Shown: one piece after another, positions 2,014 to 14,641 of the stretch
Layout: every line of letters begins with the position of its first letter
Numbering within the stretch: position 1 is the first letter of the stretch
Assembly: GCF_028023675.1 (NCBI RefSeq)
Contig: NZ_JAQIOZ010000006.1
Coordinates: 124,001 to 188,000, forward strand
Length of the DNA: 64,000 bases
From: Primorskyibacter aestuariivivens
GTDB taxonomy: Bacteria > Pseudomonadota > Alphaproteobacteria > Rhodobacterales > Rhodobacteraceae
Direction of reading: 5' to 3'
Position numbers and translations under genes: made by a program
Notes under the pieces: model-generated
What the model was told of the DNA's origin: nothing
The model's input: only the letters and a program-made list of their open reading frames with translations
Databases searched by the model: none

Positions 2014-2949
2014 TTACCCCGCCTTGGGGTGGGCGGCGTTGTAGACCTCAAGAAGCCGGGCCGTATCCACGGCGGTGTAGCCCTGCGTCGTGCTGAGCGA
2101 CGCATGGCCAAGCAGTTCCTGGATCGCGCGCAGATCACCGCCTGCGTTGAGCAGGTGGGTGGCAAAGGAATGGCGCATCGCATGGGGTGTTGCCGTCGCA
2201 GGCAGGCCAAGCTGCATGCGGGCCTGCTGCATCACTTTCTGCACCAGCCGCGGATTGAGTGCGCCGCCCCGCGCCCCGACAAAAAGCGTGCGCGTTGGCT
2301 CAACCGGAAAGGGGCAGAGCGTGAGATAGTCATCAACCGCCCGCGCCGCGGCGGGCAGCACCGGCACGACCCGTTCCTTGCCGCCCTTGCCGACGATACG
2401 CAGGCTTTCCCCCAGCGGGGCCTGTGCGCAGGTCAGGCCCAGCGCCTCGGAAATGCGCAGCCCGCAGCCATAGAGCAAGGTAACCACGGCAGCATCCCGG
2501 GCTGCAATCCACCCGGTCTGGGATTGCAACTCGACCGTGTCGATCATCTGCTTGGCGGCATGCTCGGCCAGTGGCCGGGGCAGCTTGCGGGTGTATTTCG
2601 GCGCGCGGGTGGACAGCACCGCAGTGGGTTCAAACCCTTCCCGCTCGGCCAGCCAACGGTAAAAGCTCTTGACCGCGCTGAGTTTCCGCGCCAGCGACCG
2701 GGGGCCCACATCGCCGCCGCGCGTAAGGGCCATCCACGCCCGCATGTCACGCACCGTGATACGTGAGATTGGGCCAAGCCCCTGACCGCCGCCATGGTAG
2801 TCGGTCATGAAGGCCAGAAAGCCCAGAACGTCGCGGCGATAGGCCTCGATGGTGTTTTCCGACCTGCCTTTGAGGGCGCGGGTCTGTGTCAGCCAGGTGT
2901 CCAGCGCGTCACGCGCTGCCGGGGAAATGAATGTGGTCTCGCCGCTCAC
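2014..2949 (-). CDS. xerC: Tyrosine recombinase XerC
   Basis: A 311-residue site-specific recombinase. The N-terminal SAM-like domain covers about residues 12-105 and the catalytic domain about 125-305. The full catalytic set is visible: R165 (GCGLRISEAL), K188 (VGKGGKE), H256 and R259 (HAMRHSFATHLL), H282 (LLGHASLSTT) and the nucleophile Y291. XerC with XerD resolves chromosome dimers at dif. Its ATG overlaps the stop of the upstream DUF484 gene by 4 nt (ATGA), an arrangement shared with many proteobacteria. XerD is close in sequence, but the DUF484 neighbour favours XerC. Confidence 0.9.
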   Translation of the reverse strand: MSGETTFISPAARDALDTWLTQTRALKGRSENTIEAYRRDVLGFLAFMTDYHGGGQGLGPISRITVRDMRAWMALTRGGDVGPRSLARKLSAVKSFYRWLAEREGFEPTAVLSTRAPKYTRKLPRPLAEHAAKQMIDTVELQSQTGWIAARDAAVVTLLYGCGLRISEALGLTCAQAPLGESLRIVGKGGKERVVPVLPAAARAVDDYLTLCPFPVEPTRTLFVGARGGALNPRLVQKVMQQARMQLGLPATATPHAMRHSFATHLLNAGGDLRAIQELLGHASLSTTQGYTAVDTARLLEVYNAAHPKAG

Positions 2950-3656
2950 GCCAGCCAGCGGCGCATGGAGCGCTCAAAGACACCGGCGAAAAATGCCAGA
3001 AGGTCAGTGCCCTGCTGCGGGGTGAATTGATGCGGGTCTTCTGCTCCCAGAACCAGCATGCCGGGCTGGCGTCCGGGGCCGAAATCCAGAACCAGACAGG
3101 CCTCGGACCGCTGATCGGCGGCTTTGTCGCCATAGATCGCCGCATCACCACTGGCCAGTTGGCGCAGTGTCACCGGGCGTACGCCGCCCATCTGCCCGGC
3201 AGTGATATACTCGGCAATAAACCCGGGTTCCGCCACCATGAGCACATCGCCCAGCTTGCGAATGGCCGGGTCATCATCGGCGCGCTCCCCGCTTTCCAGA
3301 ACCAGCCGCACCGCATCCACACGCAGGATATCCGCCACTTCGCCACTCAGATTGCGCAGGAAGGTCTCGAAATCCGTGGGGTCCAGCATGCGCAGGATGG
3401 CGCGATGCACCTGGTTGGTACCAGCAAGGTTTTCGTAAGCTGCAGCAATCACGCTGCGATGGGTGTCCTCAAGCCGGTCAAGACGCGATTCCAGACGCTC
3501 CATGGCGATGCCGCGCAGGTCGACAATATTGGTGCCCATGGATTTCTCATTTGCCGCGATCAGCGCATGCATGACGTCTTTGTCATCCAGAATTACCGAA
3601 GGGCGCGAAATGATCTTGGCGCGCAGGTCGTCATCAATCTTGAGCGTGGAGGTCAT
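2946..3656 (-). CDS. DUF484 family protein
   Basis: A 236-residue protein of the DUF484 family, which resembles a GAF-like sensory fold and is encoded next to xerC in many proteobacteria. Visible are an N-terminal helical part with PSVILDDKDVMHALIAAN, a central coiled-coil-like stretch ending in SRLDRLEDTHRSVIAAAYENL, and a C-terminal globular part with SEACLVLDFGPGRQPGMLVLGAEDPHQF. Translational coupling to xerC through a 4-nt overlap suggests co-expression. Its biochemical role is unknown. No enzymatic residues can be recognised. Confidence 0.85.
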   Translation of the reverse strand: MTSTLKIDDDLRAKIISRPSVILDDKDVMHALIAANEKSMGTNIVDLRGIAMERLESRLDRLEDTHRSVIAAAYENLAGTNQVHRAILRMLDPTDFETFLRNLSGEVADILRVDAVRLVLESGERADDDPAIRKLGDVLMVAEPGFIAEYITAGQMGGVRPVTLRQLASGDAAIYGDKAADQRSEACLVLDFGPGRQPGMLVLGAEDPHQFTPQQGTDLLAFFAGVFERSMRRWLA

Positions 3657-3851
3657 GCGATTCCCTTTTGCAGTTGCCAGACCCTAACAAACCCGGCCGC
3701 GCTTTTGTTCAAAAATTTAAATGGCTTTTGCGTGTTTGTTGAAGTTGATGCAGTGAGTCAACGCTGAGGGCAGGTGCCTGTGGATAGAATCATGGGCGGT
3801 GTCCTGAAGGCCACAGAATTGGAAAGGGTTTGTTAACGTTCCCCCCAAACG

Positions 3852-3884
3852 AAAAGACCCCGCCACACTGGGCGAGGTCTTGCA
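3852..3884 (-). terminator. Rho-independent terminator after the transaldolase gene
   Basis: The arms AAGACCCCGCC and GGCGAGGTCTT pair around a short loop with one mismatch. In the minus direction they are followed by a CTTTTCGTTT tract. It lies about 20 nt beyond the stop of the minus-strand transaldolase gene, as expected for its terminator. Confidence 0.75.
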
Positions 3885-3903
3885 ATACGCAGTTGGGTCG
3901 CGG

Positions 3904-4557
3904 TCAGACGATCTTGATGCCTGCATCCGCCGCGTCCTTGACAAAGGCGTCCAGGCCCTTGTCGGTCAGGACGTGATTGGCCATCGCCTTGATCACGTTC
4001 GGCGGCGCGGTGGCCACATCGGCACCGATCTTGGCGCATTCACTCATGTGATTGGCCGAACGGATCGAAGCGGCAAGGATATTGGTTTCGAAACCGTAAT
4101 TGTCATAGATCTCTCGAATATCTGCGATCAGGTCGAGACCGTCGACGTTCAGGTCGTCCAAGCGGCCGATGAAAGGCGAGATAAAGGTCGCGCCGGCTTT
4201 GGCCGCCAGCAGCGCCTGATTGGCGGAGAAGCAGAGCGTCACGTTGACCATCTTGCCTTCACCGGTCAGGACCTTGCACGCCTTGAGACCATCCCATGTC
4301 AGCGGCACCTTGACGGCGATATTCTCGGCAATCTCGGCCAGCTTGCGGCCCTCGGCGATCATGTCCTCGGCCTTGAGCGCGACCACTTCGGCGCTTACCG
4401 GACCTTCGACGAGGTCACAGATCTCCTTGGTCACTTCCAGGATATCGCGCCCGGACTTCTTGATCAGCGACGGGTTGGTCGTGACCCCGTCCACCATGCC
4501 CAGTTCGTGAAGTTCGCGGATCGCGTCAATTTCCGCAGTATCGACAAAGAATCGCAT
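3904..4557 (-). CDS. tal: Small (FSA/TalC-type) transaldolase
   Basis: A 217-residue protein starting [10 protein letters not shown], the hallmark beginning of the small transaldolase/fructose-6-phosphate aldolase family. The first strand is followed by [11 protein letters not shown]. The Schiff-base lysine is K83 in [10 protein letters not shown], and the C-terminus carries the TAPP-like segment [13 protein letters not shown]. The reading frame stays open 15 codons further upstream, but the ATG at 4557 is preceded by an AGGAGG Shine-Dalgarno sequence and matches the family length. It probably acts in the non-oxidative pentose phosphate pathway. It is divergent from priA. Confidence 0.9.
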
Positions 4558-4657
4558 CTCTCGGCCTCCTTGGCTCGCTTGGCTTTCTGTTGCCCGTGTC
4601 ATACCCCAGAGTGACGCAGAGAAAAAGCCCGCATTGTGAGCGCTAACAGGAAGTCGG

Positions 4658-6856
4658 ATGCCGCGTAGCTATTTTGACGAAGGCGACAGGATTGGTGTTC
4701 TGATCACCCAGCAGATGGGCGATCGGTCCGGTGTGCTTGACTATTTGGCTCCTGAAGGCGGTTGTCATCTGGGTGCCTTTGTCGAGGTGCCGCTGGGACC
4801 ACGCAAGATGCTGGGCGTGGTCTGGGGCGAGGGCGAGGGCAGCTTTGACCGCGCCAAGCTGCGGCAGGTGATCCGCGTGCTGGATGTGGCACCCATGGGT
4901 GAGGGGTTGCGCAGCTTCCTGACCCGCGCCGGGGCCTATACGCTCACGCCGTTGCCTGCGATGCTGCGGTTGGCCACCCGTGCGCCGGGTCTGGGCGATC
5001 CGCCGTCAATGCGCAAGATCTACCGGCGCGGCGAGGGGCTGCCCGACCGTGACACCAAGGCGCGGCGCGCGGTGATCGAGACTTTGGCGGAGTATGGCGA
5101 TCTGGCCTTTACGCTCAAGGAACTGGCCGAGATGGCCGGGGTGTCCGCCTCGGTGGTCAAGGGGCTGGTGGCGCAGGGCGTCGTGCGCGAAGAGGAAGCG
5201 CCGCGCGATACACCTTATCGCACACTGGACCCGGCCCGCCCGGGCAAGACCCTGACCGGGGATCAGGCGCAGGCCGCCGAACATTTGCGCGGCGCGTTGC
5301 AGGGCGGCTATTCCACCACGCTTTTGCGCGGCGTCACCGGATCGGGCAAGACCGAGGTCTATCTTGAGGCCGTCGCCGAATGCCTGCGTAAGGGGCGGCA
5401 GGCGCTGGTGCTGTTGCCCGAGATCGCGCTGACACAGGAATTCCTGACCCGGGTCGAGGCACGGTTTGGCGCGCAGCCCGCCGAATGGCATTCCGGCGTG
5501 ACCATGACCGAACGCCGCCGTTGCTGGAAAATGGTGGGGCAAGGCGGCGCGCAGATGGTGGTCGGCGCGCGCTCCGCGCTGTTCCTGCCGTTCCGCGATC
5601 TGGGGCTGATCGTCGTCGATGAGGAACACGACAATTCCTACAAACAGGAAGACGGTGTGCTCTACAACGCCCGCGACATGGCCGTTTTGCGCGCCGCGAT
5701 CGAAGGCGCGGCGGTGGTGCTGGCCTCGGCCACGCCGTCGCTGGAAAGCTGGGCCAATGCGGAATCCGGGAAATACACCCGCCTCGACCTGACCTCGCGC
5801 TTTGGCGAAGCCGTCATGCCCGAGATGCGTGCCATCGACATGCGCGCCGAAACGCTGCCGTCGAACCGCTGGATTTCCCCCAGCCTGCAAAAACTGGTCG
5901 AGACGCGGATGCAGGCCGGTGAACAATCGCTCTTGTTCATAAACCGTCGCGGCTATGCGCCGATCACACTGTGTCGGGCCTGCGGGCATCAGATTGGCTG
6001 TGACCATTGCGATGCGCGCATGGTCGAACACCGTTTCCTCAAGCGTCTCGTCTGCCACCAATGCGGCGAGACCAAACCCATGCCCAACGCCTGCCCCTCT
6101 TGCGAGGCCGAGGATAAGCTGGCCGCCGTTGGCCCGGGGGTGGAGCGGTTGTCCGAGGAAGCGGTGGCGCTGTTCCCCGACGCGCGTGTGGCGACGCTGT
6201 CATCTGACATGTACGGGTCCGCACGCGCACTCAAGGAGCAGATCAGAGAGATCGCCGAGGGCGGGGCCGATATCATCATCGGCACGCAGCTTGTGGCCAA
6301 GGGGCATAACTTTCCGCTGCTCACGCTGGTCGGCGTGATCGACGCGGATCTGGGGCTTCAGGGCTCCGATCTGCGCGCGGCTGAACACACGTTTCAGCTT
6401 ATGCGGCAGGTGGCGGGCCGGGCGGGACGTGCGGAGAAGCCCGGCACTGCGGTACTCCAGACTTATCAGCCCGAGCATCCGGTGATCCGCGCCATCCTGG
6501 CCGGAGATGAAGAGGCGTTCTGGAGCGCCGAGGCCACCGAACGCCGTGGCGCGGGTGTGCCGCCCTATGGCCGCATGGCGGGGATTATCATCAGCTCGAC
6601 CGACGCGCAGGAAGCCTTTGACCTCGGCAATGCGCTGGCGCGCAACGATATGGCGCTGCGCCGCGTGGGCGCGCAGGTCTTTGGCCCCGCGCCTGCGCCC
6701 ATTGCGCGTGTGCGCGGACGGCATCGGGTGCGGTTGTTGGTCAAGGCGGACAAGGGCACGGCGCTGCAACCGGCGCTGGCCGAATGGGTGGGGCAATTCC
6801 CGCTCAAGGGACAATTGCGCCTTGCCGTCGATATCGACCCCCAGAGTTTCTACTAG
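4658..6856 (+). CDS. priA: Primosomal replication helicase PriA
   Basis: A 732-residue superfamily 2 helicase that reloads the replisome at repaired forks. An N-terminal DNA-binding region precedes Walker A GVTGSGKT at 225-232 and Walker B DEEH at 321-324, followed by the aromatic-rich loop [17 protein letters not shown]. Eight cysteines from [13 protein letters not shown] through [16 protein letters not shown] form the two zinc sites inserted in the helicase core. Helicase motifs V and VI are seen as [12 protein letters not shown] and QVAGRAGR. It is single-gene in this window and divergent from the transaldolase gene. Confidence 0.97.
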
Positions 6857-6916
6857 AAACAAGCCCTTGGCGGAGAGTACGGTTTCTGAGACGCTACTGT
6901 TAAGATTGGTTAATGA

Positions 6917-7230
6917 GTGTCCTGGGTTAAGATGCGCGCGCGCACGAACCTCGTTATCCATGATGCCGGGCGGTTCATGCGGTGTTGCATGGATGCCGGG
7001 GAGCGGTTCGATTTCATCGCGATCCTTGGCTTCTACTACCACACGATGGAGCATTTCCGCTTTCTGGACCTTGCCCGACAATTGCAGGCCGACACCATCA
7101 TGACCGACAACCCCGTCATTCGACTGGCGCAGCAATCCACCGACAAGGTCAGCAAAGCGGTTGCAAGCTTTCAGGGGCAGGACAGCAACGTGATTGGTAT
7201 CCCCAGCGCTGGCGCGCCGCAGCGTCTGAG
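6917..7230 (+). pseudogene. Remnant of a SAM-dependent methyltransferase-like gene
   Basis: Translation from 6917 gives a coherent segment, RTNLVIHDAGRFMRCCMD then GERFDFIAILGFYYHTMEHF and QLQADTIMTDNPVIRL. It resembles the middle of a class I methyltransferase, but motif I is missing on the N-terminal side. The frame continues past about 7230 into sequence that looks non-coding and overlaps the next gene's start. I infer a gene fragment left by deletion. The alternative is a small unrelated gene. Between priA and the ClpP-fold gene at 7297 I see nothing else that looks functional. Confidence 0.45.
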
Positions 7231-7296
7231 AAAAAGCGAATTGTTTTTTTTAAAGGCAAGGCGTTACCTTTGGGGCAACATGAATTGGAGGCCGTC

Positions 7297-8871
7297 TTGC
7301 TGCTCAGACCTTTGCTTGCCCTTTGCCTTGCGCTTCTTACAACTCCGGCCCTTGCCGCGACCGTAAGGCCCGTCGATCACCCGCGCTGTGATTTCAAACT
7401 GGAAGGTCAGATCGAGGTGGGCGACACCGCCCAGCTTGATCAGATCCCGGGCATGCATGACGGACAGACGCTGTGCCTCAACAGCCCCGGCGGCTCGCTG
7501 GGCGAGGGCAAGCGCATGTTCGATGTGATCTGGGCGCGCAACATCATGACGCACGTCCTGGCGGGCGAACGCTGCGAGAGCGCCTGTGCGCTGGCGTTTC
7601 TGGGCGGTTCGATCAATACCGGGACGGCCAATATCCGGTTTTCGGCACGCGTGATCGAGGCGGGCGCGCGGCTTGGCTTTCACGCGCCCAAGCTGGAGTT
7701 GCCCGATGACCGGAGCTATCCGGCGGGTATCGTGAACAAGGCTTTCGAGACCGCGTTGAAATCGGCCGAGGATATCCACGCCATAAAGCTACACGAGGAA
7801 CATGGCGTCGAGGCGATGCAGGATTTCCTCTATCAGCGCATCCTCTCCACCCGTCCCGAGTCGATGTATTATATCGAAACCGTGGGTGATGCGGCGATGT
7901 CCGGTATTTCGGTTGAGGGGCTAAAAATCCCGACCCAGGTGACCGAGCAGGTGATTGCCAATTTCTGCGACAATGCCTGGGTTGCCAAGCGTGCCGATAT
8001 GCGCCCCGGCTACCGCAGCGCGGCGGAGTATTATGACGAGATCGGCGACGGCTTCTATGGCCAGCGAAAAGTGACCTTGCGCCGCGAGGGCGGCACGCTG
8101 ATCGGGCAGGTGTCTGATTATTACAGCGCGGTGAAATTCGGGGCGTTTGGCTGCGAAGTTCGGATGGGCGAGGATCAGTTCCGCCGCGCCCGTAATGGCA
8201 GCGGCGGGTCGATCTATGCGGTGTTTTATCCCTATTTCGGGGATGAGCCATTTGGCCAGGAAACCGGCAACAAACAATTCTCCGATGAGGTTGCCATACC
8301 GCTATGGTTCGCCATGGATCCGATCACGCCCTTGCCCGCCATGACGGCGGCGGCGGACACAGACACCCGAGTGACCCGTGATGATTTCGTGCCGTTTCGC
8401 GGGATCGACCTGTTCGGGGGCGATCTGGCGGATGGAATGATCCGGGGCATGGGATCGCCCAATGCCTGTATCGAGCGCTGCATCGGGCGCGCGGGCTGTG
8501 ATGCGGTGACTTATGACCGCTGGAACAATATCTGCTACCTGAAATCCGTCGACCGGTCTGACCGCACGCTCTACGTGCTGTCCAAGGCCACCACCTATGT
8601 CAAAGCGCCGCGCGATGGCGACGTATTCCCGGCGCGTCGCGGCGTCATCAAGACCTGGACGCGCAACGGCAAAGGGTTTCGTGACGTTCCCTATGACACC
8701 CGCATTGTGGAGAACCAGCGTGCTTGTGAACGGGCCTGTTTTGGACGGGAGTGCCACGGGTTCAACTATGTTCCGGCCAGCCGGATGTGCTTTCTGTTCT
8801 CCGAGCCGGATGAGTATTTCGACATGAACGGCGTGGTCGTGGGGTTCCAGCAACAGGATCGGGTCGAGTAA
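7297..8871 (+). CDS. Secreted ClpP/crotonase-fold protein with two C-terminal PAN/apple-like segments
   Basis: A 524-residue protein with a signal peptide of about 20 residues ending TTPALAA. The N-terminal half has a ClpP-like fold: NSPGGSLGEG at 62-71 (oxyanion-side loop), the likely nucleophile S95 inside C93-E-S-A-C97, and H129 in LGFHAPK. The C-terminal third has two cysteine-rich segments, CIERCIGRAGCDAVTYDRWNNIC and CERACFGRECHGFNY, which look like PAN/apple domains used for binding protein or carbohydrate. The open frame starts at 6982, but TTG at 7297 follows GGAGG by 5 nt and directly begins the signal peptide. It heads a run of secreted-protein genes. Substrate unknown. Confidence 0.75.
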   Translation: MLLRPLLALCLALLTTPALAATVRPVDHPRCDFKLEGQIEVGDTAQLDQIPGMHDGQTLCLNSPGGSLGEGKRMFDVIWARNIMTHVLAGERCESACALAFLGGSINTGTANIRFSARVIEAGARLGFHAPKLELPDDRSYPAGIVNKAFETALKSAEDIHAIKLHEEHGVEAMQDFLYQRILSTRPESMYYIETVGDAAMSGISVEGLKIPTQVTEQVIANFCDNAWVAKRADMRPGYRSAAEYYDEIGDGFYGQRKVTLRREGGTLIGQVSDYYSAVKFGAFGCEVRMGEDQFRRARNGSGGSIYAVFYPYFGDEPFGQETGNKQFSDEVAIPLWFAMDPITPLPAMTAAADTDTRVTRDDFVPFRGIDLFGGDLADGMIRGMGSPNACIERCIGRAGCDAVTYDRWNNICYLKSVDRSDRTLYVLSKATTYVKAPRDGDVFPARRGVIKTWTRNGKGFRDVPYDTRIVENQRACERACFGRECHGFNYVPASRMCFLFSEPDEYFDMNGVVVGFQQQDRVE

Positions 8872-8981
8872 CAGACCAGACACGCAGAGTGACAATCCCT
8901 GGTGTGTCACCTGCGTGTTTTGTATTTCGGCGAAATTCGGCCTAAACTCCCGTGACTGCTTGATTCTTGCCGAAAGTGCTC

Positions 8982-9638
8982 ATGATGCGAAACGCTCTGC
9001 CCCCCTTGATTTCTGCGGCCATTCTGGTGGGAGGCACAGGGTTCGCCCCGGCACAATCCGTGATCACTTTGGATGATTTCGATCTGGGCGGCGATGCGGC
9101 GCCGCGGGATATGGAGCGCACCGGCAACAATCGCATGGAGCTGTGCCTGCGTGACCCGTCACAGTGTGATGACGGTGGCGTGGATTTCTCCATCGACGAT
9201 GTTGTCAACCTTGGCATCGTGGATCGTGAGGAAGTGGCTGAAACCCCGGCGTCCTCGGATGGTCAACCGGTGCGCAACACCGATCCATTGCCGTCGGTCG
9301 ATCTGGAGGTGCTGTTCGATTCCAATTCGTCCGACATTCGTCCGGATCAGATGGGTCAGTTGCTGGAACTGGCCAATATCCTGCGCGGTGGCGAATTCAG
9401 CAGTTACAAGCTGATTTTCATGGGCCACACGGATGCCAAGGGATCAGCTGAGTACAATGAGTGGCTGTCTCAACAACGCGCCCGCAGCGTCGCCGATTTC
9501 GTTGCGGCGGCCGCCGACGTTCCGCGCAGCCGCCTTCAGGCTGTTGGGCTGGGATTCCAGAAGCTGGCAGATCCAGTCAACCCCTACAGCGAAAAGAACC
9601 GCCGCGTGCAGTTGGTTCTGCTGCCGAGCAAGGGGTAA
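8982..9638 (+). CDS. Secreted OmpA-like protein with RTG-CX6C motif (paralogue 1)
   Basis: About 218 residues: a signal peptide ending near FAPAQS, then a short region with ERTGNN and cysteines C55 and C62 spaced as CX6C, a linker, and a C-terminal OmpA-like peptidoglycan-binding domain (VLFDSNSSDIRPDQMGQL ... GHTDAKGSAEYN ... LSQQRARSVADFV ... NRRVQLVLL). It has no beta-barrel and no lipobox, so it is probably soluble in the periplasm and peptidoglycan-bound. A TTG at 8967 and an ATG at 8985 are alternative starts. It is closely related along its whole length to the gene at 10275. Five nt separate it from the next gene. Confidence 0.8.
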   Translation: MMRNALPPLISAAILVGGTGFAPAQSVITLDDFDLGGDAAPRDMERTGNNRMELCLRDPSQCDDGGVDFSIDDVVNLGIVDREEVAETPASSDGQPVRNTDPLPSVDLEVLFDSNSSDIRPDQMGQLLELANILRGGEFSSYKLIFMGHTDAKGSAEYNEWLSQQRARSVADFVAAAADVPRSRLQAVGLGFQKLADPVNPYSEKNRRVQLVLLPSKG

Positions 9639-9643
9639 CGGCT

Positions 9644-10288
9644 ATGCGGCGCTTCGGGTTCTTTCGACATTGCGCGCCGCTTGCGATGATCCTTTTGGCC
9701 AGTGGTCTGCACGGCCAGCAAACGATCACAATGGACGATCTGGAGCCTGACAGGACCGGCGACAATTCTTTGGAACGCTGCCTGCTGGACCCTGAAGATT
9801 GTGCGCCCAGAACCGGAGGCGGCGCGCCGCCGGCACCTCCGCCGCCAGCCGAACCGGTCCCGGAGCCCGCGCTGCCGGACTGGAAAGAGCAGAGCTTCGA
9901 TTTTGGTCTGATCTCGCCCCCGGCGGGCGAAATGGCCGAGGCCAAGGTCCGTGTTCTTACGCTGGATTTCAGCTTTGACAAGGGATCGGCGCGCCCCGAT
10001 GCAGCGGGAATTGCCGAAATGATATTGCTGGGTGATGCGTTGCAGGGCGATCCCTATCCCGCGCATCGCTATGTCTTTGTGGGGCATTCTACCCCTGACG
10101 AAGGCCCCGAGGGCAGGGGCCTGTCCTTTCGGCGCGCGGCGCTGCTTGCGGATTTTGTGTCCCGGTTCGTCGGGCTGGAGCAGTACAGGTATCAGGTGGC
10201 CGGGCTGGTCGCCGCTGTGCCACTGATCAAAGACGCGCCCAATGACAAGCGGAACCGCCGCGTGGAGGTGATACTTGCGCCCCTATAG
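9644..10288 (+). CDS. Secreted OmpA-like protein with RTG-CX6C motif and proline-rich linker (paralogue 2)
   Basis: A 214-residue protein beginning MRRFGFFRHCAPL, with a signal peptide ending near LHGQQ. It repeats the DRTGDNSLERC motif with CX6C (CLLDPEDC), followed by a proline-rich linker at about 60-75 and a diverged OmpA-like domain (LDFSFDKGSARPDAAG ... VFVGHSTPDEG ... NRRVEVILAPL). The upstream part of the open frame from 9461 overlaps the previous gene and is not used. The OmpA domain is more diverged than those of its two neighbours, suggesting a distinct partner. Function unknown; a structural periplasmic role is inferred. Confidence 0.75.
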   Translation: MRRFGFFRHCAPLAMILLASGLHGQQTITMDDLEPDRTGDNSLERCLLDPEDCAPRTGGGAPPAPPPPAEPVPEPALPDWKEQSFDFGLISPPAGEMAEAKVRVLTLDFSFDKGSARPDAAGIAEMILLGDALQGDPYPAHRYVFVGHSTPDEGPEGRGLSFRRAALLADFVSRFVGLEQYRYQVAGLVAAVPLIKDAPNDKRNRRVEVILAPL

Positions 10289-10913
10289 AAATGATCGCTC
10301 CGTAATGCCTTTGTCTGTCCTGGCGTTCGTGCTGTCCATCGGAACGGCAAGCGCCGACACGGTGATCCCGCTTGAAGAAAAGGACATTGGCCGCACCGGT
10401 GGCAATGATCTGGAACGCTGCCTGCGCGGGGACGCGACCTGTGACGATGGCGGGGTCGATTTCACGCTGGATGATGTGATCAATCTCGGGATCGTGGATC
10501 ACGAAGAGGTGGCTGAAACCCCGGCCAGTGAAAGCGATACGCCACGCAACCGGACCGACCCGCTGCCATCTGTCGATCTCAACGTGGTTTTCGACTACAA
10601 ATCCACCGATATCCGCCCCGATCAGATGGGCCAGTTGCTTGACCTGGCGCAGGTGCTGCGCGGCGAGGATTTTGCCAATGTCATCCTTGTGTTCATGGGG
10701 CATACGGACGCCAAAGGCTCTGAAAGCTACAATCTCGATCTGTCCCGGCGCCGGGCTGAAAGCGTTGCGGCGTTCGTGGGGGATGTTGCGGACATACCGA
10801 ACCACCGCATTCGCACGAAGGGCTTTGGGTTTTCGCAATTGGCCGATCCTGCCAATCCCCTGAGCGAACGAAACAGGCGCGTTCAGTTGTTGCTGATACC
10901 GGGAGGCGCGTGA
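10275..10913 (+). CDS. Secreted OmpA-like protein with RTG-CX6C motif (paralogue 3)
   Basis: A 212-residue protein with a signal peptide ending GTASA and the sequence GRTGGNDLERC with CX6C (CLRGDATC). A block CDDGGVDFTLDDVINLGIV and an OmpA-like domain follow, both nearly matching the gene at 8982. The TTG start at 10275 gives a basic n-region (MRPYRNDR) and overlaps the previous gene by 14 nt; ATG at 10305 is the alternative. The similarity to paralogue 1 with the diverged paralogue 2 lying between them points to tandem duplication within an operon. Confidence 0.8.
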   Translation: MRPYRNDRSVMPLSVLAFVLSIGTASADTVIPLEEKDIGRTGGNDLERCLRGDATCDDGGVDFTLDDVINLGIVDHEEVAETPASESDTPRNRTDPLPSVDLNVVFDYKSTDIRPDQMGQLLDLAQVLRGEDFANVILVFMGHTDAKGSESYNLDLSRRRAESVAAFVGDVADIPNHRIRTKGFGFSQLADPANPLSERNRRVQLLLIPGGA

Positions 10914-10916
10914 TCC

Positions 10917-11240
10917 ATGACACGATCAACAGCATGTATTGCATGTCTTACCCTTGCCCTGATGCTGTTGCCGGTTGTGTCGGTGGCGCAAAGCGATCCC
11001 GTCACTATTCCGCCTGAGGACAGCACACCGGGCCGGACCGGCAACAACTCTCTGGAAACATGCCTGCGTAACCCTGAGGGCTGTCCGAATTTTTTCAAGG
11101 AGGACTATGCGGATCCGAATGCCGCCCCGACGCGCGGAGACGATGAGGCCCTGACGCCGGATGAAAAGCTGCAACGCTTTATCCAGCAATTCGAGTGCGG
11201 CGATACCGATGCCGGGATTTGCGTCGAGGCTGCGGAGTAG
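10917..11240 (+). CDS. Short secreted protein with RTG-CX6C motif, no OmpA domain (paralogue 4)
   Basis: A 107-residue protein with a clear signal peptide (CLTLALMLLPVVSVAQ) and the same block as its three upstream neighbours, GRTGNNSLETC with CLRNPEGC (CX6C). After this it keeps only an acidic tail with two more cysteines (FECGDTDAGIC) and no peptidoglycan-binding domain. It begins 3 nt after the preceding stop and closes the plus-strand run. Retention of the motif alone suggests the motif region is a functional unit separable from the OmpA domain. It could be a truncated duplicate, but the reading frame and signal peptide are intact. Confidence 0.7.
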   Translation: MTRSTACIACLTLALMLLPVVSVAQSDPVTIPPEDSTPGRTGNNSLETCLRNPEGCPNFFKEDYADPNAAPTRGDDEALTPDEKLQRFIQQFECGDTDAGICVEAAE

Positions 11241-11290
11241 GGCTCAACCGACTCTTGTAAACGTAGGAACCGGTTCCGATGCGAACCGCT

Positions 11291-12481
11291 TTAGTCGATC
11301 TTAAAGGGGCGCACCTGAAAGCCCGTCTCGACACCACCTGCCGCGACCGATCCATCTTCTTCCCCGGCACGCGCCGCGTCCACCGCTGCACGAAGCAACG
11401 CCTTGAGTATGTCTTCCGGGGTGCCCACAGGCGGTTCGCACAGATAGCCAATATGATTGGTGCCCTTCTCGTCTTCTGGCAGAACCTTGAGCCCATAACG
11501 TGAGCCCGGAGAAATCTCATATCGCGTCTGCCCCGACGCCAGCGCCACGGTCCTGAAGAACCGTCTCGGGATCGGCGTGAACCGTCCGGACGGTGCCAGT
11601 GCAAAGAAGAATGGCGTGCAGCTTGGCGGCAGGTCAGCGATCATCGCGACCTCGTCATCCACGCTCACCCGCCCGGGATAGACCGACAGGATCGGGTCCA
11701 GCTTATTGCGCGGGGCGGGCGTGGCCTTGCCAGTGAAATAGAACTCGCGTTGCATCTGGCTTAGCTGCTGCGGACGCTGGTCGCCGCCGGTCTCTGACAC
11801 CACGTCCTTGGTCACGCGTTTCATCATTACAGACACTTCGATGCCCGGTGTGGGGATGTGCCGCGCCAGCGCCCGGGCAAAGGGGGAATTGCCCTGTGTG
11901 CCGTCGCTGGCCACTGTGTCGGGCAGGGTGGCAAAGGCCACAAGCTGGTCGCCCTGCGCCTGCACCACGGCCAGACCCCGCGTGACATTGGCCGTTCGCC
12001 CCTCGGCGCGGGCCTCGGCCATCAGCTGTTCGGCAAAGGGATTGTTGCGACAGGCGTCCAGAAAGATGAGCGAGACAGGCACCGGCGTCAGCGCATCCAT
12101 GATTTGATCAAGCGCAATGCCCTCACGCGCAATCGCCGCCGCCGAGTTCAGCCGCGCATCCACCGGCATCAGGTAATTCACCCGCTCATATTGAATGCCA
12201 TGCCCCGCGAAATAGACTGCCGCCACATCCGCGGTCATCGCCGCCCTGGTAAAGGCGTCCAGCGCCTCGCCCATGGCGTCTTCGGTCAGGTCGGTCAATG
12301 CCGTGACCTCGAACCCCGTGGCGCGCAGGCTGTCCGAGATCAGCACCGCGTCATTGGCGGCATTTGGGAGCACGCCGATCCGCTCATAGCCGGAGTTGCC
12401 GATCACAAGCGCGATGCGTTCTTCAGCAAGGGCGGGAAAGGCCAGCATTAAGAACGCGGAGAGCAGGGCAATCAGGCGCAT
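11291..12481 (-). CDS. Secreted caspase-family (peptidase C14) protein
   Basis: A 396-residue protein with a signal peptide ending FPALA and a caspase-like domain at about 20-240. The catalytic dyad is visible as H94 (VYFAGHGIQ) and C144 (LDACRNNPF), and the substrate-side strand begins RIALVIGNSGYE. The C-terminal 150 residues are a separate, unrecognised region ending GFQVRPFKID. The frame is open to an ATG at 12499, but an AAAAGGA sequence 8 nt before the ATG at 12481 favours the latter. It is convergent with the OmpA-like genes and divergent from the second ClpP-fold gene. Bacterial caspase-like peptidases often prefer basic P1 residues; here specificity is unknown. Confidence 0.85.
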   Translation of the reverse strand: MRLIALLSAFLMLAFPALAEERIALVIGNSGYERIGVLPNAANDAVLISDSLRATGFEVTALTDLTEDAMGEALDAFTRAAMTADVAAVYFAGHGIQYERVNYLMPVDARLNSAAAIAREGIALDQIMDALTPVPVSLIFLDACRNNPFAEQLMAEARAEGRTANVTRGLAVVQAQGDQLVAFATLPDTVASDGTQGNSPFARALARHIPTPGIEVSVMMKRVTKDVVSETGGDQRPQQLSQMQREFYFTGKATPAPRNKLDPILSVYPGRVSVDDEVAMIADLPPSCTPFFFALAPSGRFTPIPRRFFRTVALASGQTRYEISPGSRYGLKVLPEDEKGTNHIGYLCEPPVGTPEDILKALLRAAVDAARAGEEDGSVAAGGVETGFQVRPFKID

Positions 12482-12555
12482 GGGCAATGTCCTTTTCATT
12501 CAATCGGTTTGCCACCATCGTGGCGGGGAAATCGGGAACAGACAAGGTGGCCATT

Positions 12556-13590
12556 ATGCGTGTGAACAGGTTTCTATGTGCGGTCCTTGCTGCCGTAGCA
12601 CCGGTGCTGGCAACAGCTGCGCCCATGGTCTTCGACCACGGCTGCATCGGCAACGCGGTCGAGGGCTGTTATCTGGTCGGTGTGGGCGAGATTAGTCGCG
12701 ATACACCCGAGGAATTGGCGGCTTTCATTGATGTCCAAGGGGTCGAAGGTAACCAGATCCTGCTCGACAGCAATGGCGGCAACCTGGGCGCCGGGATTCG
12801 GATGGGCCGCATCATTCGTGAGAATGACATGACGGCCATCGTTGGCGCGGTCGAGCCGCGCAAGCCCGGCGGGCGGTTCCCGTTGGATTTGCCAACCGCC
12901 GGCACCTGTGCCAGCGCCTGCGCCTATGCCTTTCTGGGTGGCACCACCCGGCGGCTGGCCAAGGGCTCAAAGCTGGGCTTTCACCAGTTCTACATGGGCG
13001 TGCAGGGGGCCAGTTCCTCGGCCCAACAGGTCTCGGGCCAGTTGGTCAGCTATCTCGTGGAAATGGGGGTGGACCCGCGCATCTTTGCGAAGGCCAGTTC
13101 GCAAGGGGCAGAGAGCATGTACTGGGTTCCCGAGGACGAGGCCGAAAGCTTCGACCTGATCACTCCCTATGGATACGATGATTTCTTTCTTGAACCCTAT
13201 GGCAAAGGTGTCGTCGCCGCTGCCAAGCGCAAGACGCCCACCGGGCCCTACGATCTCGTTCATCAGGTCACGGCCTACTGTCGCAAGGGTACAGCCACGC
13301 TGCTGTTTACCGCCGATTTCGCGCCCGAGCGAAGCAGTACCTTCAACTTGTCTCTGGACGGTCGAAAGCGTGTGATCAATGCAGCGAAAGTGGCATCGCG
13401 TAGAACCGATAATGCGGGTTATCTTGAAGTGCGCCTGTCGTCGAAAGATGCCGTAGATCTGACAAAAGCCACTCTTGTCGAAACCTATTTTGACTATTCC
13501 CGCGCCGAGGGCTGGGGCTATGGCACCCGTCTCGAACTCAACGACATGGATCGCAAGATGCTCGACGCCGCCTTCCGTCTCTGCCTGTAG
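12556..13590 (+). CDS. Secreted ClpP/crotonase-fold protein
   Basis: A 344-residue protein with a signal peptide ending APVLATAA. The ClpP-like core has DSNGGNLGAG at 71-80, the likely nucleophile S120 inside C118-A-S-A-C122, and H143 in LGFHQFY. This is the same arrangement as in the protein starting at 7297. The C-terminal part, about 230-344, is not recognised. The frame is open upstream to 12364, but that stretch overlaps the divergent caspase gene; ATG at 12556 starts the signal peptide. Its TAG stop lies within a palindromic repeat. Probably periplasmic; whether it is a protease is inferred from fold residues only. Confidence 0.75.
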   Translation: MRVNRFLCAVLAAVAPVLATAAPMVFDHGCIGNAVEGCYLVGVGEISRDTPEELAAFIDVQGVEGNQILLDSNGGNLGAGIRMGRIIRENDMTAIVGAVEPRKPGGRFPLDLPTAGTCASACAYAFLGGTTRRLAKGSKLGFHQFYMGVQGASSSAQQVSGQLVSYLVEMGVDPRIFAKASSQGAESMYWVPEDEAESFDLITPYGYDDFFLEPYGKGVVAAAKRKTPTGPYDLVHQVTAYCRKGTATLLFTADFAPERSSTFNLSLDGRKRVINAAKVASRRTDNAGYLEVRLSSKDAVDLTKATLVETYFDYSRAEGWGYGTRLELNDMDRKMLDAAFRLCL

Positions 13591-13611
13591 GGTGCGCATT
13601 CACTGCGCACC
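13587..13611 (+). repeat. Palindromic repeat copy A, supplying the stop codon of the ClpP-fold gene
   Basis: GTA followed by an inverted repeat with arms GGTGCGCA and TGCGCACC around TTCAC. Positions 13587-13609 are identical over 23 nt to the reverse complement of 60671-60693. The TAG stop of the upstream gene is part of the repeat. It could also act as a transcription stop between the two convergent genes. Confidence 0.75.
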
Positions 13612-13615
13612 GCCC

Positions 13616-14641
13616 CTATTTAAACAGATCGCTCTGCCCCGGAGCCTTTGGCGCGGCCATTCCCAGATGGGTCCAGGCCTTCTGCGCCAGCATCCGCCCG
13701 CGCGGGGTGCGCTGGATCAGCCCCTGTTGCAGCAGGTAGGGCTCGATCACCTCTTCCAGCGCATCGCGGCTTTCCGACAGCGCCGCTGAGAGCGTTTCAA
13801 TCCCAACGGGCCCGCCCGCGTAGTTTTCGGCAATGAGCCGCAGGTACCTCCGGTCCGCCCCATCAAGGCCCAGCTTGTCCACCCCCAGCCGGGTCAGCGC
13901 ATTATCCGCCAGGTCCTGCGTGATCCGCCCGTCGCCATCGACCACGGCGAAATCCACCACCCGGCGCAACAGACGCCCGGCGATCCGCGGTGTGCCGCGC
14001 GCGCGGCGTGCAATTTCGCGCGCACCGCCTGTATCGGCAGGAACGCCCAGCTTGGTGGCGTTGCGGGTGACGATCTCGAAAAGCTCATCCACCGTATAGA
14101 ACTGCAGCCGCGTGGGGATGCCGAACCGGTCGCGCAACGGCGTGGTAAGCAGGCCCAGGCGTGTCGTTGCCCCCACCAGCGTGAAGGGCTGCAATTCGAT
14201 CCGGACGGTGCGCGCCGCTGGCCCTTCGCCGATCACGAGGTCCAGCTCGAAATCCTCCATTGCGGGATACAGCACTTCCTCGACCGAGGGGTTCAGCCGG
14301 TGAATCTCGTCGATGAAAAGCACATCGCGCGCCTCCAGATTGGTCAGGATCGCCGCCAGGTCGCCCGCCTTGGCCAGCACCGGGCCGGAGGTCATGCGGA
14401 AATTCACCCCCAGCTCGCGCGCCATGATCTGCGCCAGTGTGGTTTTGCCCAGACCGGGCGGGCCGTGAAACAACGTGTGGTCCATCGCCTCGCCACGTTG
14501 GCGGGCGGACTGGATGAATACGCGAAGGTTGGCGCGTGCCTCGGCCTGTCCAATGAAATCGCCAAGTTGTTGGGGGCGCAGCGCACGGTCATTGTCCCCG
14601 GTCATCGTTTCCGGGCGCAGGGTGGGGTCCGGTTCGTTCAT
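13616..14641 (-). CDS. ruvB: Holliday junction branch migration ATPase RuvB
   Basis: A 341-residue AAA+ motor of the RuvABC resolvasome. The N-terminal ATPase domain shows [12 protein letters not shown], Walker A GPPGLGKT at 60-67 and Walker [10 protein letters not shown]. The sensor-type [19 protein letters not shown] and the C-terminal winged helix ([15 protein letters not shown]) follow. Its ATG overlaps the ruvA stop by 4 nt, indicating translational coupling in a ruvC-ruvA-ruvB operon. It drives branch migration by rotating DNA through RuvA. Confidence 0.97.

Follow-up and report, generated by a model that had tools for sequence, protein, structure and literature searches.

Seven genes between priA and ruvB

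The window analysed here is a 64,000-nucleotide stretch of Primorskyibacter aestuariivivens (contig NZ_JAQIOZ010000006.1, positions 124,001 to 188,000). Between priA (4658-6856) and ruvB (13616-14641) it carries a 6.3-kb block of seven open genes, here called A to G (7297-13590), which encode ClpP-fold proteins, OmpA-domain proteins and a caspase. The constant part of this block, found again in other genomes, is a core of two genes, namely an OmpA-domain protein with a conserved head and an exported protease with an immunoglobulin (Ig)-like C-terminal domain (CTD). In a genome of the same genus (G099) priA adjoins ruvB directly and the seven-gene block is absent; the block is either an insertion in the window genome or a loss in G099. 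In Phaeobacter sp. J2-8 (locus L002) the same priA-ruvB site holds gene F and one OmpA gene only.

Gene F (11291-12499, reverse strand) encodes an exported, paracaspase-like caspase, whose CTD (11294-11701, reverse strand), modelled as an Ig-like beta-sandwich, also occurs on trypsin-type proteases. The caspase His/Cys dyad named in a preliminary description of the window was borne out, since F matches Pfam Peptidase_C14 (2.3e-38) and His100 and Cys150 are invariant in 10 of 10 orthologues. With this dyad inside the Peptidase_C14 domain, F probably belongs to family C14B (paracaspase/metacaspase).

Genes B (8985-9638, forward strand) and D (10305-10913, forward strand) encode full OmpA-head proteins that are 62% identical. 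The head region of B (9051-9320, forward strand) serves as the marker of the OmpA partner family. An RTG motif common to the four small proteins B to E was seen again by eye, while the claim that three of them carry an OmpA domain holds only loosely: Pfam OmpA is above its cut-off in B (4.2e-15) and D (9e-15), and neither C nor E has a Pfam hit. Gene C (9644-10288, forward strand) is a diverged tandem copy related to D (27% identity, E 6e-10), with a degenerate OmpA domain that by eye is without the Asp of the GHTD motif. Gene E (10917-11240, forward strand) encodes a short exported RTG protein without OmpA domain. Both keep the RTG motif, the head motif is recognisable in neither, and C and E together (9644-11240) resemble tandem copies of B and D that are in decay or have been re-purposed.

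Gene A (7297-8871, forward strand; TTG start after GGAGG) encodes an exported serine hydrolase whose ClpP fold is confirmed by Foldseek (E 1.6e-6 to the ClpP structure 1yg6, TMt 0.64), with Ser and His kept, from a model of low overall confidence that is good mainly in the ClpP part (predicted local distance difference test, pLDDT, 67). Pfam adds two PAN stretches. As to gene G (12556-13590, forward strand), proposed as a second exported ClpP-fold protein, it is related to A (30% identity, E 1e-6) and shows the same motifs by eye, but it has no Pfam hit. Pfam CLP_protease matches neither A nor G, and one relative reaches 16.4 bits against a cut-off of 20.2.

Signal peptides had been assigned to all seven proteins. 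A crude signal-peptide rule passes six of the seven and none of five housekeeping neighbours; gene D fails it, probably because no basic residue follows its ATG. Among relatives, several of which have uncertain start codons, the share that passes is 9 of 10 for proteases, 12 of 17 for OmpA rows and 28 of 40 for A-type rows.

The OmpA-head protein and its exchangeable protease

The core was found at 15 distinct loci, 10 of which have a caspase (the window, L001-L006, L048, L101, L102) and 5 a trypsin (L045, L046, L103-L105). At all 15 the OmpA gene adjoins the CTD protease or sits one gene away from it. This pairing spans two or more genomic sites and several gene orders: L045, L103 and L104 have flanking genes in common, and the window and L002 both lie at priA/ruvB. 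The core also exists in another taxonomic order, in Cucumibacter marinus (L003). The protease that bears the CTD in L045 and L046 is trypsin-like (Pfam Trypsin_2, 1.1e-19 and 2.6e-20) and lies beside the same OmpA protein; with trypsin in its place at 5 of 15 loci the caspase is not essential to the core. The caspase/trypsin label changes twice on the OmpA tree and once, with weak support, on the CTD tree. Two candidates were set aside, namely L047, which duplicates the record of L006 (the contig has 92,628 bases in both cases), and genome G328, where the CTD match covers 57 residues and that place has neither a blast relative of the core nor a CTD-type gene.

The OmpA head is well conserved across this exchange. 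Nine alignment columns, including two Cys and DVxN (usually within DDVVNLGI[IV]D), are invariant in 17 of 17 rows from caspase and trypsin loci alike. Because head and CTD both survive the exchange of protease class, they are likely to be a docking pair. As a general site of caspase cleavage at Arg, RTG was rejected: none of 15 OmpA heads from other loci has it.

Among PDB sequences the caspase profile is nearest to MALT1. With the MALT1 numbering anchored on His415/Cys464, Asp50 and Asp148 of F align with MALT1 Asp365 and Asp462. The latter are given as S1-pocket residues for Arg in a passage of PMC4357240. In each of the five trypsin forms, an Asp precedes the Ser by six residues. At that position of trypsin, Asp confers a preference for Arg/Lys. 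Because of these matches, caspase and trypsin proteases of the core are both predicted from sequence to cut after Arg/Lys.

Besides the acidic residues at the two S1 positions, F resembles MALT1 in its paracaspase-like domain, which is followed by a domain modelled as Ig-like where MALT1 has an Ig domain. In MALT1 the Ig domain behind the protease domain has been suggested to restrain the protease (PMC4357240, in the same excerpt). The protein here, in contrast, is bacterial and exported, gave no death domain hit, and has an Ig-like CTD that is also carried by trypsins. The CTD model is confident (pLDDT 93), while its fold matches are weak and confined to common Ig-type sandwiches with no clear relative: the best Foldseek hit has E 2.8e-3 and TM 0.40, the VIA result (Z 8.2, 97 residues, 3.1 A) is barely above the range of common arrangements, and a sequence search of the CTD against PDB gave nothing better than E 0.24. 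The likeness to MALT1 is a resemblance, not kinship.

Plasmids were considered as the home of the core and rejected, the window CTD having no match in 72,556 plasmid records. Other caspase genes were met along the way. A second exported caspase lies near the core in L101 (10517-12007) and L102 (3484-5028), the L101 copy with a Pfam F5/8-type NADase_transloc domain. In a cluster shared by two genera (L133 in the window's own genome, contig C5, 7005-16924; L141 in G055, 2565-14210), a single row of genes comprises several for caspases, one for OmpA and one for a protein of about 1,150-1,190 residues; there is no CTD in it. Plasmid caspase genes in Ruegeria conchae (L143), Sulfitobacter sp. S223 (L144) and Pseudosulfitobacter sp. 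(L145) have as neighbours secreted proteins of MBG or hemagglutinin type, type VI secretion genes and a Ser/Thr kinase, and the one in Ruegeria conchae is also near two OmpA genes.

ClpP-fold relatives and their distribution

We searched 394 genomes of the family. The CTD matched in 11 of them, or in ten without the spurious fragment of G328, and the OmpA head profile matched in ten, the very genomes that have a full CTD (p 4.5e-20, without correction for phylogeny). In a sample of the class the CTD occurs in 1 of 385 genomes, the window's own.

Copies of A's ClpP domain were tallied in 265 genomes of the family and in the four remaining core genomes, with E<=1e-10 as a strong copy. The ten core genomes have 9, 6, 9, 8, 3, 1, 13, 13, 7 and 5 strong copies, that is, three or more in nine of them, and these are lower bounds, as not all candidates were scored in four of the first six. 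By contrast, 8 of 259 core-free genomes have a strong hit, with a maximum of two (G099), so three or more strong copies were seen only in genomes with the core. These 259 are taken as core-free because the itemised rows belong to the 394-genome sample; 180 matchless rows were not itemised. The rank test for six core genomes against the 259 others gives p 3.6e-27, uncorrected. The expansion is seen with either class of protease (caspase genomes 9, 9, 8, 3 and 7; trypsin genomes 6, 1, 13, 13 and 5). Copies in core genomes are 28-48% identical to the window's A and those in core-free genomes 30-43%, and mere detection bias is therefore unlikely. The ten core genomes amount to fewer than ten independent points; the cleanest contrast is that between the own genome (nine copies) and G099, of the same genus and without the core (two).

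Linkage is looser than co-occurrence. A-type genes lie near the core, within the fetched stretch, at 9 of 15 loci, and in L101 (caspase) and L104 (trypsin) the start codon of A overlaps the stop of the protease (ATGA). Many copies are unlinked to the core; in the own genome one of nine is inside the window. Relatives of G track the core and are often unlinked as well: G stands beside the core at 3 of 15 loci only (window, L005, L046), and 8 of the 12 best-scoring among the 394 genomes carry the core, or 7 of 11 without the own genome.

We retrieved 42 ClpP-fold proteins, a part of all copies, and set aside two G-type rows. In the remaining 40 A-type rows Ser and His are each kept in 39, and a Cys pair around the Ser is present in all 40. 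Fold, Gly-rich loop, Ser and His are those of the ClpP peptidase, whereas these proteins are exported, have Cys-x-Ser-x-Cys at the nucleophile and end in variable tails; no unfoldase was found by Pfam among the window's seven proteins. The tails belong to PAN, SH3, YARHG, peptidoglycan-binding (PG-binding) or Sel1/TPR types, or to none known, the PG-binding and Sel1/TPR matches being below the Pfam cut-offs. Some unlinked ClpP-fold proteins have a C-terminal module of the form FTWPSG...T ... SGNTFCF (L146, 1937-3364, without Pfam match; L135, 2785-4230; L155, 2319-3689; L159, 1909-3381). Three ClpP-fold genes form a tandem array in L147 (2680-7148; contig C26 of the own genome), whereas the core lies on a different contig.

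A proposed protease hub at the cell wall and its alternatives

The seven genes had been proposed to form one system. An exported, peptidoglycan-linked protease system with strong co-occurrence is supported, but not one fixed unit: homologues are scattered, and at the same time they co-occur strongly with the core. The RTG motif, confined to the four tandem copies, and the copies C and E were seen in the window genome only. We therefore read the locus as part of a periplasmic proteolytic network, in which a peptidoglycan-tethered protease hub controls dispersed exported ClpP-fold hydrolases, and give this reading a probability of roughly 0.5. From the observed composition and linkage we infer docking, cutting and purpose as follows. 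The OmpA domain would bind peptidoglycan and so tether the hub, while the head would dock the protease through its CTD. A signal reaching the wall, or the PAN, SH3 or PG-binding tails, may act as trigger, upon which the hub protease, a predicted Arg/Lys cutter, would activate or release the ClpP-fold hydrolases or their targets. The end effect would be the removal of unwanted envelope protein, foreign or damaged.

Several observations weigh against this network. No conserved Arg/Lys cleavage site was seen by eye in the OmpA head, nor was one found in the A family, whose single conserved Arg is inside the ClpP core. At six of the 15 loci the fetched stretch contains no A gene (at one of them, L048, the contig is short). 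Core-free genomes can have single A copies, and for a copy on a Roseibium plasmid the annotation shows neither a caspase nor an OmpA gene next to it; of nine stretches around core-free single copies, the gene picker found the A gene again in six, which makes them weak evidence on neighbours, and core absence in those genomes rests on the CTD and head searches. Absences are not absolute, as up to 10 candidates per genome were scored for the CTD and up to 13 for the head, and the query for the A counts came from a core genome. Finally, a ruvB tree of 15 rows places all five trypsin genomes in a single clade (98/97), and genomes are therefore not independent points. In the same tree the caspase genomes are spread, with four core-free genomes among them that were not drawn at random (G099 is of the same genus and three came from the caspase search); the labels need four changes, two of them forced by firm branches, and are no less clustered than shuffled labels.

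As to its purpose, the network may tentatively be seen as a periplasmic counterpart of caspase/trypsin immune cascades, where a wall-tethered hub would sense envelope attack by phage, predator or rival and switch on a diversified ClpP-fold arsenal with PAN, SH3 and PG-binding tails. We favour such a role in conflict or defence over housekeeping, because of the patchy presence, the empty site, the protease exchange and the diversified tails, with envelope quality control and protein maturation also in play. Caspase and trypsin domains are described as mutually exclusive in NTPase-based conflict systems in the part of PMC7159879 consulted, and here too they exclude each other at one position. 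Those systems, however, have vWA/MoxR or STAND components according to the same part, whereas the proteins here look exported; Pfam found no NTPase/EAD, vWA/MoxR or STAND component, and no gasdermin, in the window's seven proteins, the scan having covered these alone. With ten proteins, PADLOC matched no set of system components and gave single-domain hits only (MotB-like ZorB, caspase, RT-protease, LmuA).

Somewhat less probable is envelope quality control or stress response, with the hub sensing damaged wall or misfolded periplasmic proteins and the ClpP-fold proteins degrading them. DegS/HtrA-type proteases do sense such damage, and the export of these proteins and their OmpA, SH3, PG-binding and Sel1/TPR domains would suit the task, but a core in only 10 of 394 family genomes, missing from G099 and also from the 384 other genomes of the class sample, would be odd for housekeeping. 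Rather doubtful is a maturation system in which the ClpP-fold proteins are exoenzymes or surface proteins processed and anchored by the hub. One sortase or exosortase serves many scattered clients, and one core with many unlinked client genes of differing tails resembles this arrangement, yet no common tail or sorting tag was seen among the PAN, SH3, PG-binding, Sel1/TPR, YARHG and unassigned tails. That caspase, OmpA and ClpP-like genes, common in these bacteria, are merely co-resident in variable islands is very improbable: the own genome has 10 caspase-domain matches, other caspase-OmpA clusters exist and OmpA genes occur in 14 of 217 metacaspase operons (PMC3501461, in the part consulted), but CTD and head co-occur exactly, their pairing survives the caspase/trypsin exchange, and A is expanded at unlinked sites.

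Those metacaspase operons resemble the core in uniting caspase and OmpA genes, and differ in that the part of PMC3501461 consulted describes no CTD, trypsin exchange or ClpP-fold family. The preliminary description had held the composition of the locus to be undescribed, and among the matches listed from open-licence full-text literature we likewise recognised no description of it.

In conclusion, these results suggest, in a few marine bacteria, a hitherto unrecognised protein-cutting network outside the inner membrane. They show an exported bacterial caspase with a partner that is always present, a trypsin that naturally takes its place and co-occurring enzymes that can be counted, provide concrete, testable candidates for its partner and substrates, and give ClpP-fold enzymes a defined setting beyond the cytoplasm.

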